A stretch of DNA of 64,000 nt from Rothia sp. ZJ932 (GTDB lineage: Bacteria; Actinomycetota; Actinomycetes; Actinomycetales; Micrococcaceae), in the NCBI RefSeq assembly GCF_016924835.1, contig NZ_CP070480.1:1302001-1366000 (forward strand). Direction: 5' to 3'. Positions 28,443 to 34,265 of this stretch are shown piece by piece (the stretch's first letter is position 1; each line of letters opens with the position of its first letter). The position numbers and the translations under genes were made by a program. The notes below the pieces were generated by a model, which had not been told where the DNA came from, did no database searches, and saw only the letters and a program-made list of their open reading frames with translations.

Positions 28443-29147
28443 TTACTTCTGCGTCACTGTGACATCGGGAAAAGCGGTCTCAACGCTCACGTTCTGCGCG
28501 GATTCCCGATTGTGGGTGCGCCACCACATGAAGAAACCTGCGAGAGTGCAGGCACCGTAGAAAAGATACATGAAAGCTGTTGCATAATAACCGGCAGACC
28601 ACAGCAAGGGAACGCCCACAATATCAACAGCAACCCAGACCAGCCAGAACTCTACCCACCCCCGTGCCATGCCAAAGGTTGCCAACAAAGATCCGGTGAA
28701 AATCCAGGCATCAGACCACACCGGCTCGTACGAACCCAACGCACGGAAAACAGGAGTTAAAACCCCGGTGCCAACCAGCATGAAAGCAACCATAAACAGT
28801 CGCTCTTTAGCACTAGCCCACTGCGGTATAACAGCTACGCCCTGACTTTCGGCGCGAGTCTGACGCCAGCGGTGCCATCCCCAGATTGAAACAGCGATAA
28901 ACATCACCTGACGCCCAGCCTGACCCAGCATATTCGCCGCATGCGCCTGACCGCCAAAGAGCGTACCCATAAAAACAGTAAAAAGCAGCACATTGCCAGC
29001 AATGCCCACCGGCCACGCCCACACCCGTCGGCGCATACCGCCTAAAGCAGAGAGCAATCCAAAAATATTACCGAGGACTTCGCGCACCAGAAGCGACTGA
29101 TCGCCAATGTGAATCTGAGCGTCGAAGAGCCACCGCAAAAAGTCCAT
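28443..29147 (-). CDS. ribM: PnuC-family riboflavin transporter (PnuX/RibM-like)
   Basis: About 234 residues with seven or so membrane helices, of the PnuC family (WFDA-like N-terminus, FGLLSALGGMRRRVWAWPVGIAGN, WGWHRWRQ, and late YATAFMYLFYGACTLAGFFMW). PnuC proteins mostly carry nicotinamide riboside, but as first gene behind an FMN riboswitch and followed by ribD it fits PnuX/RibM riboflavin importers of Actinobacteria. The start MDFLRWLFD is chosen because AAAGGTG lies just upstream; the longer frame runs into the riboswitch. The substrate is inferred from context. Confidence 0.85.
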   Translation of the reverse strand: MDFLRWLFDAQIHIGDQSLLVREVLGNIFGLLSALGGMRRRVWAWPVGIAGNVLLFTVFMGTLFGGQAHAANMLGQAGRQVMFIAVSIWGWHRWRQTRAESQGVAVIPQWASAKERLFMVAFMLVGTGVLTPVFRALGSYEPVWSDAWIFTGSLLATFGMARGWVEFWLVWVAVDIVGVPLLWSAGYYATAFMYLFYGACTLAGFFMWWRTHNRESAQNVSVETAFPDVTVTQK

Positions 29148-29247
29148 GTCTTTCACCTTTGCTAGTGGCTCCGGGAAAGAACAAAGCAGCATCTCAACCG
29201 CCCCGCATAAAAAGCAAGCAGGTACACCAAAGAATAACTGTTTTGCT

Positions 29248-29396
29248 CGTGCTACCTTCCATCCAGACTGTACTGTCGGTATCGGAATTTCACCGATCAG
29301 GCCACCTGCTACCAAACCCCTAAAAGATGAAGTTGATACCGAGTAGTTAGCGGACTATCACCGCCGGTTGGGAATCTCACCCCGTCCCGGAGCACG
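29248..29396 (-). promoter_or_regulatory. FMN riboswitch (RFN element)
   Basis: On the minus strand the conserved RFN blocks appear in order: GACGGGGTGAGATTCC, ACCGGCGGTGATAGTCCGC, GATCGGTGAAATTCCG, ACCGACAGTACAGTCTGG and ATGGAAGG. The closing helix P1 is CGTGCT with AGCACG. It ends about 100 bases before the transporter start. No clear U-tract hairpin follows, so control may be translational. High FMN would shut off the transporter and riboflavin genes. Confidence 0.96.
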
Positions 29397-29650
29397 ATTA
29401 TTAGTTATATGCTCACATTATGGCACACCCGCCGTCTGCACCAAGAATTATTATTACGACCACCGCTACCGGCGAAAGCCCCCCGTGCAACGCAGTTCAA
29501 ATACCCGGTATGGACGGACGCTGGGGGCATGCACCCGGAGTGAGCAGTGCCGGGTGCGCCCAAGGGAAAGTTGGGCTAGCACCACCGACTACAGGTATTC
29601 TAAAGACACACTCTTTGCCCCCGCCCACCCCATATTTTGAAAGAAACTCA

Positions 29651-30067
29651 GTGACTGAACAGCAGAACCTACCGGTGACCGGCACCGCCCCGCGCAGCCT
29701 CCAAAACGTTCAAAAGCGAGACACCCTTTTCACCCAAGAACGCGCGTCCGTAGTAAACGCCGTCAAACGCCGCCCTCACCAGGCAGTCGCCCGCGCTGTT
29801 AAAGGCGCACAGAAACTAGTAGCCGATGACCAGGCGAAGCAGGCGCTGAACGTCCTAACGCTCGCTAAAGATCTGGTAGAAAAAGCTGCCCCTGCTGATG
29901 CCACCGACTACTATTTAGCCCTGGCAAGCATCCACCAGCACATGGGTAGCATAGCACCGGCGCAGCGAGCACTCACCCAGGCGCAGGAACACCTACAAGC
30001 TCAGGACGTACCCACCAATTCCCAGAAAAGCGCCCTTGAAAAGCTGGCTGATAGCCTTTCTGTCTAA
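29651..30067 (+). CDS. Small TPR-like helical protein, hypothetical
   Basis: 138 residues from a GTG start; the same frame is open further upstream, but that part overlaps the riboswitch promoter region and is proline-rich and unlike protein. The N-terminal third is basic and likely disordered (residues 1-50); the rest forms helical pairs (QKLVADDQAKQALNVLTLAKDL, DATDYYLALASIHQHMGSIAPAQRALTQAQEHL) resembling tetratricopeptide repeats. It is convergent with another TPR protein. Function not recognised; the start is uncertain. Confidence 0.5.
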   Translation: MTEQQNLPVTGTAPRSLQNVQKRDTLFTQERASVVNAVKRRPHQAVARAVKGAQKLVADDQAKQALNVLTLAKDLVEKAAPADATDYYLALASIHQHMGSIAPAQRALTQAQEHLQAQDVPTNSQKSALEKLADSLSV

Positions 30068-30119
30068 CCGTCCACATCTAAAATCGGCAGGGACTTTCGT
30101 GATCCTGTAGTAGCTGAGG

Positions 30120-30908
30120 TTAGCTGGTACGTTCGTGAATATGACGAGCAAAATCTGCACGCTCTGAATCGCCCGCCAGCTCGAAGGCGTCAATAGCCTG
30201 TTGAGCGTGCGCGTGCGCTTGACGGCGTAAGCCCTCCTGCTGCGCTTTGACGATTGCTAGACCCTGATAAGCCTCACCTACCAAGAGATGAGCATCAGTT
30301 TTCGTTGCATATTCCAGCACTAACGCGAGGCTGCTTTCGGCATCACTCAGTTTGCCTTCCGCCATGAAAGAGTGAGCAATATCAAGATGAATCTCAGCGA
30401 CTTTCTCGGTGTTAACGGGCTCTTTGCCCTTCAGCACAGTGATGCCGGTGGCAAGCTGTGCGCGAGCGGTAACTTCGTCTCCGCGCTGGCGGTAAATACC
30501 CGCAAGGCAAATCATATTGTGGGCGTAGCCGTCAGCACGCGCGTGGGCGGCGTACTCACGAGCGCCCACAGAATACCACTGCTCTGATTCATCGAGCAGA
30601 CCCATCTGGGCGTAGATTGAACCGGTTTCGGTGGCGAAATCCCCCACCTGCTCAGCTGTGGGTTTGAGTTCTTTGAGCAAGTAGTAGGCACGTTCCATCT
30701 GCTCAACAGCGGTATCGAGACGGTTGAGGTCACGGTTAGTTTCAGAAGCTATTTTCAGTGCCAGCACCACACCGAACTTCTCATGTTGCACGGTGAACCC
30801 GTCAAGCGCGGCGTCAAGAGCGGGCAGGGCGTCCTCAAGTTTGCCCTCAGCGATCAGCTGCTGCGCAGCTTCTAGGGCGTCGTCGGGAGAAGAATAAGGG
30901 GTGAGCAT
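30120..30908 (-). CDS. Tetratricopeptide-repeat protein, hypothetical
   Basis: 262 residues, all-helical, with about five or six TPR units (for example EAAQQLIAEGKLEDALPALDAAL, ETGSIYAQMGLLDESEQWYSVGA, HNMICLAGIYRQRGDEVTARAQLATG). No signal peptide or catalytic domain. TPR arrays mediate protein-protein contact; the partner is unknown. It lies 15 bases downstream of the RAMA/GIY-YIG gene in the same direction and may be co-transcribed with it. Confidence 0.75.
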   Translation of the reverse strand: MLTPYSSPDDALEAAQQLIAEGKLEDALPALDAALDGFTVQHEKFGVVLALKIASETNRDLNRLDTAVEQMERAYYLLKELKPTAEQVGDFATETGSIYAQMGLLDESEQWYSVGAREYAAHARADGYAHNMICLAGIYRQRGDEVTARAQLATGITVLKGKEPVNTEKVAEIHLDIAHSFMAEGKLSDAESSLALVLEYATKTDAHLLVGEAYQGLAIVKAQQEGLRRQAHAHAQQAIDAFELAGDSERADFARHIHERTS

Positions 30909-30923
30909 CGAAAAGCGTCCTTT

Positions 30924-31784
30924 CTAGGAGGTTGAAGACGTATTGCTCATCAGCCCAGTAACAATAGCCCCTTGGAAAAACCTTTTCCTTTGTACCTCTT
31001 GGTCTAGCGCCTGAAGATATTCCTGCCCCTTAAGTCCGTCCCCCTGTCTACGGTTTTGGGGAGGCTCTAATCCTTCGATCAGTACGGCTTCCATCGTTGA
31101 GATCACGAGTTCCGCTGGAAAATCTTGCTGCGCAACACCCAACGATCCATCAAGCGTTACAGGTCTTAGCCCAAACCAGCTGAAACGATCCCACCGCCCA
31201 GCCACACGGTCAATTGTATGTTCGTACAGTCGAAAGCCTAGACGTTCCGCGCTTACCCTGCCTACATAAATAGTTCTAGAACCATCGTGCAGTAAATAGA
31301 CTCCGGTTTGCCCCGCCATATCGATGTGCTGTTGTGTTTTATCGGTAGGATGCACGCCCAAAAGCTTCACGTTCTGTTTTAGTTCCCAGTTAACGTCGGC
31401 TCGTCGCCAGAACATGCCGAAAGCAGAGATAACACCAGAGCTTTCGACATCTTCGCTCTCTGCTGAACTAGTATCGCCGTCTTCAGAGGAATCGACCGCT
31501 AGGGTCTGCGAACCAAAGTTCTTTCTGTATTTTTCGCGAAGGTCGGCGAGGGTCTCACGGCTATTTTCTAGACGCCAGAAAATCCACCCGTTCACCGATT
31601 GAAGATTACCGGCGACTTTAGCGGCTGCCGTTGGGGTTTCATAGTGATGACCCTCAAAAGCAAGAGTTCCGTCGGCGTGCACAGCCGCTACCTTTTGTGA
31701 GTATTTCGGTGAAAGTTCCTGCCCCACAACAAGAAGATTGGCACGAATCAAATCTTTGACACTGACATCTGATGAAGCGCTCAT
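30924..31784 (-). CDS. RAMA-like domain plus GIY-YIG nuclease-like domain protein
   Basis: 286 residues. The N-terminal 75 residues (VKDLIRANLLVVGQELSPKY ... AAVHADGTLAFEGHHYETPTAAAK ... NGWIFWRL) match the pattern of RAMA/DUF4357 domains, which accompany restriction and modification enzymes and are predicted to read DNA modification. An acidic Ser-rich linker (about 97-120) follows. The C-terminal part has the GIY-YIG landmarks: GVYLLHDG, TIYVGRVS, an Arg in FRLYEHT, and the late MEAVLIEGLEPPQNRR holding the metal Glu and Asn. No methyltransferase is adjacent. A modification-dependent nuclease is inferred, not shown. Confidence 0.65.
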   Translation of the reverse strand: MSASSDVSVKDLIRANLLVVGQELSPKYSQKVAAVHADGTLAFEGHHYETPTAAAKVAGNLQSVNGWIFWRLENSRETLADLREKYRKNFGSQTLAVDSSEDGDTSSAESEDVESSGVISAFGMFWRRADVNWELKQNVKLLGVHPTDKTQQHIDMAGQTGVYLLHDGSRTIYVGRVSAERLGFRLYEHTIDRVAGRWDRFSWFGLRPVTLDGSLGVAQQDFPAELVISTMEAVLIEGLEPPQNRRQGDGLKGQEYLQALDQEVQRKRFFQGAIVTGLMSNTSSTS

Positions 31785-31795
31785 TCTATTTCCTT

Positions 31796-32461
31796 CTAGG
31801 CATGAAAGTGCTTTTGGGCGGACGCGCGCAAACCGGCGATAGCCGCGGCGGGATCATCGATGTTGTAGACCGATGAGCCTGCCACAAAGCAGGTGGCACC
31901 AGCCTCAGCGGCACGAGCAATGGTCTCTTCAGTGATGCCGCCATCGACCTGCAGCATCAAGTCCAGCCCCGAACCCTCAATAGCCTTTGCTGCACGGCGA
32001 ATCTTCGGCAGGGTAACATCTAAGAACTTCTGCCCACCGAAACCCGGCTCAACGGTCATAATCAACAGCATATCCAGCTCAGAAAGCATATCGAGATAGG
32101 ACTCAACCGCTGTTGCCGGGCGCAGAGCCATACCCGCCTTCGCGCCGTTTTCGCGCAAGGTACGCGCCAGTTTGATAGGTGCAATAGCAGCCTCGGCATG
32201 GAAAGTCACCGACTCGCACCCAACCTCAGCGTAGGCAGGCGCGTGTCTGTCTGCGTCCTCAATCATCAGGTGCACATCAAAGGGAATAGGTGATACCTCT
32301 TTGAGTCGCTTCACCACCGGCAAACCCCAGGTCAGATTCGGCACAAAATGATTATCCATCACATCAATATGCGCGGCATCTGCCGAAGAAATCGCCTCAA
32401 GTTCAGAGGCAAGGTACGCGAAATCAGCCGAAAGAATCGAGGGATTAATATGGCAACTCAT
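31796..32461 (-). CDS. rpe: Ribulose-phosphate 3-epimerase
   Basis: Interconverts ribulose-5-phosphate and xylulose-5-phosphate in the pentose phosphate pathway. 221-residue TIM barrel: [29 protein letters not shown] (metal His/Asp), [20 protein letters not shown] and LQVDGGI. The gene starts 95 bases after rsmB. It ends 11 bases before the RAMA/GIY-YIG gene. Confidence 0.96.
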
Positions 32462-32558
32462 GGGCGCTCCTGAAAGGTTGGAACAAAATCTCTTACACCC
32501 AGCTCTACCAGCTGGCTACTGCCGCACACGTGACCTCTCGCGGTTGTTTGGAGTGGCG

Positions 32559-34265
32559 CTACTTCTTGCGAAACAGCGCGAAGAACATCGCATCCGTACC
32601 GTGTACGTGCGGCCACAACTGCGCAGTGGTAGCCTGCGGCTGCTTATTATTCGGTGCGTAACCGGGGTCAAGCTCACCGCCCAGTACCGACTCCCCCTGC
32701 TCATTGCTCAGGGCAACTGCGCGTAAAGCGCTGGCTGAATCTAGTAGCTCTACCGCACCATCAGCCACAATGTCATTCACAATGTTTTGCGTCTCAGCCA
32801 TGTGAGGTGAGCAGGTAACATAAGCAATCAGACCACCGGCGCGAGTCACGGTCACCGCCGCGTCAAACAGCTCCTTCTGCAAGGGCAACAAACCAGCAAT
32901 ATCGCGTGGCGACTTACGCCACCTCGCCTCAGGACGGCGACGCAGGGCACCCAAACCTGAACAGGGAACATCTACCATCACACGGTCAAACTGCGGGTTG
33001 GGTTCAGTAGCCGCCGGCAGGTTCTTCTTATCGCTCACGGTTGCCGCGATGTCGCGCCCATCGCCCGTCACCACCTTGTAGACGCTACCGCGCAAAGGAC
33101 GCAAGGACGCGCTCACCAGCTTGGCGCGGTGAGCAGCTGACTCGTTGGCGACCAGCTGAGCCTGACGCTGCGCGCCGATAGTAGCCAGCAAGGCCGCTTT
33201 GCCACCGGGGCCTGCACACAGATCAAGCCACAGGGAGTCTTCACCCTCAAGAGGGGCAAAAGCTAGGGCGCGCGCAACCAGCTGCGAGCCTACGTCCTGC
33301 GCACGCACAGTGCCCTCACGCACCGACTCTAGATGGCGCAAATCGCCAGAGGAGTACAGCGCCGAGCCTTCCACCAGCTCACCATCAACCGCACCAGCAT
33401 CACGAGCCTCGTCCAAAGAGCCGATACCGGGCAGCTCCACCAAGTTCACGATAGGGGCGGCGTTATCAGCATCAAGCAGAGCCTCAATTTCCTGCGGCGA
33501 ACGACCGTGGGCTGCCAGAGCCTGCCTAAAGGCACGTACCACCCAGACCGGGTGTGAAGCGGTCAGCGCCATCTTCTGAATATCGTCAGTTGCCTCAGAC
33601 TCAATAAGCTCTCGCCACTCTTCGGCGGTCTTCTCAGAAACCCTGCGCAAAACAGCGTTGATAAAGGTTGCCGGCCCCGCACCAATCACCGCACGCGCCA
33701 AACCAACTGTCTGGTTCAGGGCAGCATGCGAAGGCACACGCATCGCCAGCAACTGGTGGGCACCCAAACGCAAAGCGGTCAGAATCTTCTGATCGATCTT
33801 CTTCAACGGGCGGTCAACGCAATGAGTCAGCACCGCATCATAGTACCCCTGGTTACGCAGGGTGCCGTAGGTCAGCTCAGTGGCAAAGCCAGCATCACGC
33901 TGATCCAGGCGATGGTTGCGCATTGACTTGGGCATCACCAGGTTCGCATACGAATCTTCGGTAGCAACCGCCTGCATCACCTCAAAAGCAACCAAACGAG
34001 CCGCGTCCGCCTCACGCGCGCGAGTTCTCGGTGCCGAAGTTGAAAAATCACGCTCATGGGACTTCTTGCGGTTGCGCTCGCGCCCCTTAGCATCACGACG
34101 CGAAGAATCGTCAGCGCGGTACCCCTGACGGCGGTCATCACCACGATTCGCGCCGGTTCGCCCCTGCCCCGCCCGATTCATACCCGAACGTTGCCCACCG
34201 CGGTTCTGGCCGTTCTGCCCACGGTTTGAGTTACCGCCACCGCGGGATGAGTTAAAGCCGCTCAT
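32559..34265 (-). CDS. rsmB: 16S rRNA m5C methyltransferase, RsmB/NOP family
   Basis: 568 residues. Residues 1-80 are a Gly/Arg/Asn/Gln-rich low-complexity region, then a NusB-like helical domain (about 85-225) and a SAM-dependent methyltransferase domain: LWLDLCAGPGGKAALLA, the RNA-binding motif FDRVMVDVPCSGLGALRRRPEA and the catalytic cysteine in AYVTCSPHMAETQ. Its start overlaps the fmt stop by four bases. It modifies 16S rRNA by family analogy; the disordered N-terminus probably aids RNA binding. Confidence 0.92.
   Translation of the reverse strand: MSGFNSSRGGGNSNRGQNGQNRGGQRSGMNRAGQGRTGANRGDDRRQGYRADDSSRRDAKGRERNRKKSHERDFSTSAPRTRAREADAARLVAFEVMQAVATEDSYANLVMPKSMRNHRLDQRDAGFATELTYGTLRNQGYYDAVLTHCVDRPLKKIDQKILTALRLGAHQLLAMRVPSHAALNQTVGLARAVIGAGPATFINAVLRRVSEKTAEEWRELIESEATDDIQKMALTASHPVWVVRAFRQALAAHGRSPQEIEALLDADNAAPIVNLVELPGIGSLDEARDAGAVDGELVEGSALYSSGDLRHLESVREGTVRAQDVGSQLVARALAFAPLEGEDSLWLDLCAGPGGKAALLATIGAQRQAQLVANESAAHRAKLVSASLRPLRGSVYKVVTGDGRDIAATVSDKKNLPAATEPNPQFDRVMVDVPCSGLGALRRRPEARWRKSPRDIAGLLPLQKELFDAAVTVTRAGGLIAYVTCSPHMAETQNIVNDIVADGAVELLDSASALRAVALSNEQGESVLGGELDPGYAPNNKQPQATTAQLWPHVHGTDAMFFALFRKK

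Follow-up and report, generated by a model that had tools for sequence, protein, structure and literature searches.

Organization of the locus

The analyzed window, a 64-kb stretch of DNA of Rothia sp. ZJ932, contains on the reverse strand an ORF encoding a 286-aa protein that almost certainly has a two-domain architecture, combining a RAMA domain with a GIY-YIG domain. The features of this gene and of the two genes next to it are as follows:

30120..30908 (−): context gene encoding a TPR protein, 15 bp downstream of the nuclease gene (TPR_12, E-value = 3 × 10−9)
30924..31784 (−): gene of the RAMA–GIY-YIG fusion protein, 286 aa, intact ORF with an ATG start
30975..31430 (−): GIY-YIG nuclease domain, aa 119–270 (alignments, PF01541/PF20815 matches of relatives, and domain model)
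31053..31091 (−): E232 (metal ligand position) to N244, at the spacing of E76–N88 in UvrC
31176..31196 (−): family signature RWDRFSW, aa 197–203, near-invariant in relatives
31218..31232 (−): R185 (catalytic-type) and H189 (family-specific), invariant in the nuclease family
31260..31304 (−): motif pair GVY (aa 161–163) and YVG (aa 173–175), conserved in relatives, at the spacing of Y19/Y29 in UvrC
31431..31517 (−): acidic flexible linker, aa 90–118, with an E/D/S-rich sequence
31518..31775 (−): RAMA domain, aa 4–89, with NGWxFW at aa 65–70 (PF18755 and Foldseek matches)
31796..32461 (−): context gene rpe, ribulose-phosphate 3-epimerase, 11 bp upstream of the nuclease gene (PF00834, E-value = 5 × 10−69)

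The nuclease gene thus lies between rpe and the TPR gene in a housekeeping cluster; behind rpe, its start codon and an RBS-like AAGGAA are favorably positioned, and the interval 30000–32600 showed no site resembling a consensus promoter. The neighboring genes are rpe, the TPR gene, an rsmB-type RNA methylase gene, fmt, and pnuC/ribD (the last names assigned partly by reading). A DNA methyltransferase was not found among the adjoining genes, in agreement with the initial annotation, which had described a standalone form. The 15-bp distance to the TPR gene, for which the same annotation suggested possible co-transcription, was confirmed. The link is positional only, since rpe is followed by the TPR gene also in sister genomes that lack the nuclease, and on the same ground the TPR gene was ruled out as a functional partner.

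The nuclease gene was found in one of the 35 congeneric genomes and was absent from the other 34. Its GC content was 50.2%, compared with 54–60% in the neighbors measured, and in five of the seven sister genomes compared, rpe and the TPR gene lay close together. The single occurrence, the low GC content, and the location between two genes that are closely spaced in most of the sister genomes compared fit acquisition of the gene by transfer. It should be noted that the rpe–TPR junction is variable in the genus: it holds the RAMA–GIY-YIG gene here (30909–31795), a Fic gene (PF02661) in genome G031, and biotin-synthesis-like genes in genome G034 (junction coordinates outside the window: L130, 4734–5363, and L131, 5069–8021).

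On the far side of the TPR gene, a small gene of the forward strand (approximately 29600–30067) faces it and had no Pfam match; a similar protein, KRDT.F..E...V...KR.P.QAVARAVKGAQKL....KQALNVLTLAK, is encoded in the same place in genome G028 (L133, 3735–4043). An FMN riboswitch (29246–29398, reverse strand, 88 bits) stands directly before a PnuC-family transporter gene (28443–29315, reverse strand), which precedes ribD and further riboflavin genes; the encoded protein probably imports riboflavin, as a transporter of the PnuX type, and not NMN.

RAMA domain and structure model

In the Pfam search, the RAMA profile PF18755 matched aa 4–89 with an E-value of 8.2 × 10−16 and 58.3 bits, above the gathering score of 35.2, which substantiates the RAMA-like N-terminal block initially recognized from motifs; DUF4357 gave a sub-threshold echo of 13.1 bits in the same 286-aa protein. 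The NCBIfam match corresponded to the C-terminal part of CcrM, i.e., to the RAMA domain of CcrM. The full-length AlphaFold2 model, built from an alignment of 57 rows from which phage and plasmid rows were left out, had a mean pLDDT of 84.7 and a pTM of 0.60, with the linker unstructured at aa 96–112 (pLDDT < 50), and the placement of the RAMA domain relative to the nuclease domain was not fixed by the model. The nuclease domain modeled alone reached a pLDDT of 89.9. According to the Foldseek comparison, the RAMA part of the model was similar to CcrM (6pbd, E-value = 2.4 × 10−4) and MPND (7ydw/7ydt), with a probability of 1.00.

The RAMA domains of CcrM (6pbd) and MPND (7ydw) have a fold in common with that of the Rothia protein and bind dsDNA; the partner of the domain, however, is a methyltransferase in CcrM, an MPN deubiquitinase-type domain in MPND, and a nuclease in the Rothia protein. 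Both contact the DNA backbone, and base-specific contacts are absent (PMC9963953); neither structure has a modification-specific contact. The RAMA domain of MPND binds DNA with or without 6mA, the modification leaving binding unchanged, so that MPND, first reported as a 6mA reader, was later shown to be indifferent to 6mA (PMC9963953).

GIY-YIG nuclease domain

The GIY-YIG profile PF01541 had no direct Pfam match in the 286-aa protein, which is a matter of the limited reach of the profile and not a biological defining feature of the protein. The domain proposed from the motifs was nevertheless borne out through relatives. The protein of the Solidesulfovibrio plasmid pDMC2, 41% identical over aa 98–270 (E-value = 4 × 10−29), matched PF01541 with 28.0 bits (cut-off 22.6), and among 60 family members, matches with E ≤ 0.1 were obtained to PF01541 in 18 and to GIY_YIG_2 in 30. 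A direct search of the 286-aa sequence against solved structures found nothing, and profiles built from relatives were required. In the HMMER alignment to Thermotoga UvrC, the active-site residues landed on Y19, Y29, R39, E76, and N88; the Tyr–Tyr spacing of 10 and the Glu–Asn spacing of 12 were the same as in UvrC, while the Tyr–Arg distance was two residues longer.

RAMA-only fragments were left out of the nuclease alignment because a mixed alignment placed them on the nuclease domain. In the alignments of 57–60 relatives, G161, Y173, G175, R185, H189, and E232 were invariant, and Y163 and N244 were kept in at least 90%; the GVY/YVG pair and the downstream Arg, Glu, and Asn noted initially thus proved to be conserved at UvrC-like spacing. 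The top Foldseek match of the nuclease part was the GIY-YIG domain of UvrC, although weakly (probability 0.63 and 0.47, E-value = 0.13–0.16), so that sequence and motif spacing carry more weight in the assignment than the fold search does. The protein is very likely an active nuclease.

Nuclease family and probable exchange of the reader domain

GTDB species genomes were scanned with the RWDRFSW signature as a pattern, and 80 nuclease-domain relatives were kept, belonging to Actinomycetota, Bacteroidota, Pseudomonadota, Planctomycetota, Acidobacteriota, and other phyla. An N-terminal HARE-HTH domain (PF05066) was found in 65 of the 75 full-length proteins scanned, the Rothia protein counted, whereas a RAMA domain was found in four: the proteins of Rothia, Kocuria tytonis (L022), K. 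dechangensis (L023), and K. polaris (L025), the last with its start at a contig end. Both forms occur within one genus, as the HARE-HTH form is present in Kocuria subflava (L097) and the RAMA form in K. tytonis. No further RAMA forms were found in the 395 genomes of Micrococcaceae searched. One of the 75 proteins had an extra Xre-type HTH and was assigned to L034 by sequence; at positions 1246–2331 of this locus, an Xre-type HTH, a HARE-HTH, and a GIY-YIG nuclease of the same family apparently stand in one frame.

Phylogenetic analysis of the nuclease domain alone grouped the four RAMA forms into one clade (SH-aLRT 99) nested among actinobacterial HARE-HTH forms; the tree was of a quick kind with long branches elsewhere, and no claim is made as to the precise sister of the clade. 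The simplest reading of this topology would be that RAMA replaced HARE-HTH once, on a nuclease already in existence. HARE-HTH has been proposed as a modified-base reader (PMC10853773), and its ligand in this nuclease family is a predicted one. The HARE-HTH forms with a PF01541-like domain, such as WP_012749578.1 of the S. magneticus plasmid pDMC2, annotated as an “HTH domain-containing protein”, share with the Rothia protein the nuclease family (approximately 40–56% domain identity), a similar length, and a reader in front, and differ in that the reader is HARE-HTH rather than RAMA. A characterization of the HARE-HTH–GIY-YIG form was not found in the literature searched.

The copy of K. tytonis adjoins a 1613-aa type IIG/ISP-like restriction-methylase, that of K. 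polaris a type I restriction–modification system, and that of K. dechangensis SIR2-HerA. PADLOC applied to 100 flanking ORFs of the HARE-HTH relatives recognized a type I REase, Gabija, Thoeris, and DRT-type genes; enrichment is not claimed. Viral contigs yielded only three relatives, all short and reader-less. Standalone reader-less nuclease domains were observed in Synechococcus phages (L019, 3136–3630), where they are annotated as endonuclease II, and on the megaplasmid of Methylorubrum extorquens AM1 (L021, 4995–5516), where the copy lies, by reading, between two ORFs, one resembling DNA polymerase IV and unannotated, the other resembling a methylase.

Other known and candidate restriction systems with RAMA or GIY-YIG domains

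The reverse order of domains was found in two proteins (L008 and L181), with an N-terminal domain carrying the motifs GVYLLL...YVGK and a C-terminal RAMA. The first of these is a full-length member of the PADLOC candidate PDC-S14 (E-value = 2 × 10−106, match 4–276), whereas the Rothia protein matched the PDC-S14 profile over the RAMA third only (185–274 of 280) and gave no full-length match. In the BLASTP comparison of L008 with the Rothia protein, the RAMA domains aligned with an E-value of 3 × 10−11, and beyond them the alignment was limited to short segments, among them the GIY/YIG motif pair (E-value of approximately 0.01). PDC-S14 is thus, like the Rothia protein, a two-domain RAMA/GIY-YIG-like fusion of approximately 280 aa and a candidate defense protein, but its RAMA is C-terminal, its GIY-YIG belongs to another subfamily, and the likeness is significant for RAMA alone. 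It is probably the counterpart of the “GIY-YIG-RAMA” fusions that PMC11037411 names but does not study. Since RAMA stands at the C-terminus of another GIY-YIG type there, the pairing of RAMA with GIY-YIG probably arose twice.

RAMA was also found on GmrSD-type enzymes of Micrococcales (L184 and L213); here RAMA is joined to a type IV-type restriction enzyme, as proposed for the Rothia protein, although the nuclease is GmrSD (DUF262 and HNH) instead of GIY-YIG. Together with the RAMA–GIY-YIG form and PDC-S14, this brings the kinds of nuclease that carry RAMA in this part of the bacteria to three or more. In L213 (109–2100), RAMA is followed by an O6-methylguanine methyltransferase DNA-binding domain (PF01035), possibly giving two modified-base readers on one restriction enzyme.

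The winged-helix (wH)–GIY-YIG type IV enzymes Ahi29725I and Apa233I are 6mA-dependent in vitro, and Ahi29725I cleaves 1–23 nt from Gm6ATC with activity supported by Mg2+ (PMC11037411). They were likened to the Rothia protein by architecture, namely, an N-terminal reader (a modified-base one in both enzymes) and a GIY-YIG nuclease without a partner methylase. Cutting near Gm6ATC has been shown for these enzymes, and their reader is a DpnI-like winged helix instead of RAMA.

Possible function of the protein

The best explanation of these data, which we regard as moderately probable, is that the gene encodes a restriction nuclease that acts as a single-gene system and depends on DNA modification (type IV-like). 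In such an enzyme, RAMA would dock on marked dsDNA and license the GIY-YIG domain tethered by the flexible linker, which would cut nearby with one metal ion in a center formed by Tyr163, Tyr173, Arg185, and Glu232. The target would be incoming DNA bearing a mark absent from the host, and cutting would occur near the mark, after the manner of Ahi29725I and Apa233I with their winged-helix reader. The data establish the architecture, the conserved catalytic residues, and the replacement of HARE-HTH by RAMA in the course of evolution; DNA cutting, mark dependence, and protection against phages or plasmids are what we infer for the protein. This replacement on one nuclease, the restriction and defense genes adjoining the closest relatives, the GmrSD-type enzymes fused to RAMA in related genomes, and the 6mA dependence of the wH–GIY-YIG enzymes (PMC11037411) support the type IV-like role. 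The chief doubt comes from the RAMA domains already studied, that of MPND being indifferent to 6mA and that of CcrM making backbone contacts only. The position of the Rothia copy in a housekeeping cluster and not in a defense island also counts against this role, as do the weak Foldseek likeness of the modeled GIY-YIG domain to UvrC and the fact that the ligand of HARE-HTH in this family is a prediction. The more specific proposal that one nuclease chassis swaps readers and that RAMA genuinely reads modified bases, its specificity being distinct from plain 6mA, is tentative and on balance doubtful.

The same properties of the MPND and CcrM domains (PMC9963953) would fit an orphan nuclease whose RAMA domain is a general or sequence-preferring dsDNA binder that senses no mark, with specificity provided by the nuclease domain or by regulation. 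The presence of RAMA in a methyltransferase (CcrM) and the reader-less copies in phages and on the megaplasmid point the same way; however, a cutter of unmodified DNA would be toxic unless controlled, and there is no protecting methylase at the locus, while RAMA has been exchanged with HARE-HTH, itself a proposed modified-base reader (PMC10853773). This explanation appears rather unlikely. If, on the other hand, the conserved housekeeping cluster and the UvrC domains as nearest solved relatives are given more weight, the protein could be a UvrC-like repair or recombination nuclease, damage- or structure-specific and not engaged in defense, but occurrence in a single congener with atypical GC is unlike the pattern of core repair genes, and the closest relatives adjoin restriction and defense genes; such a function is considered improbable. 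The isolated occurrence and low GC would also be expected of a recently acquired gene that is functionally idle and has no selective role, and no local defense partner lies within the 64-kb window; yet the ORF is intact, every catalytic residue is present, and the start codon and the RBS-like sequence are well placed, and an idle gene is considered very improbable.

Returning to the type IV-like restriction nuclease, it should be noted that GIY-YIG enzymes that read 6mA through a wH domain are already known, and GIY-YIG-RAMA has been mentioned (PMC11037411). Meanwhile, the RAMA-first order, the membership in the HARE-HTH/GIY-YIG family, and the single exchange of the reader were not found in the open-licence PubMed Central papers searched. 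The family also appears to be missing from the PADLOC 2.0 defense library, as no full-length model recognized the forms tested. The same nuclease with RAMA or HARE-HTH in related bacteria offers a clean test of mark reading by RAMA, in which cleavage would readily reveal what is bound by each reader. If the reader-swap reading is true, the two forms are a natural matched pair that would show the ligand of each domain.

Host methylases and the candidate mark

The methylase search of the source genome covered four families. No match was found in it to PF00145 (C5-cytosine methylases) or PF02086 (D12/Dam-type methylases). The genome contains a type III system and a further PF01555 methylase. An Eco57I-like methylase is encoded beside a BsuBI/PstI-like endonuclease, and a type I-like methylase is accompanied by a specificity subunit. 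By family, all of these are predicted to be of N6-adenine or N4-cytosine type. Generic 6mA was judged an unlikely target, since the host has N6-adenine-type methylases; because of the methylase genes, a cutter of every 6mA would attack the Rothia host and likewise K. tytonis and K. polaris. This leads to a restricted sequence context (e.g., GATC) or to another mark, and, judging from gene content, the methylase set of the host would allow a mark on C5-cytosine or 6mA in the Dam context.
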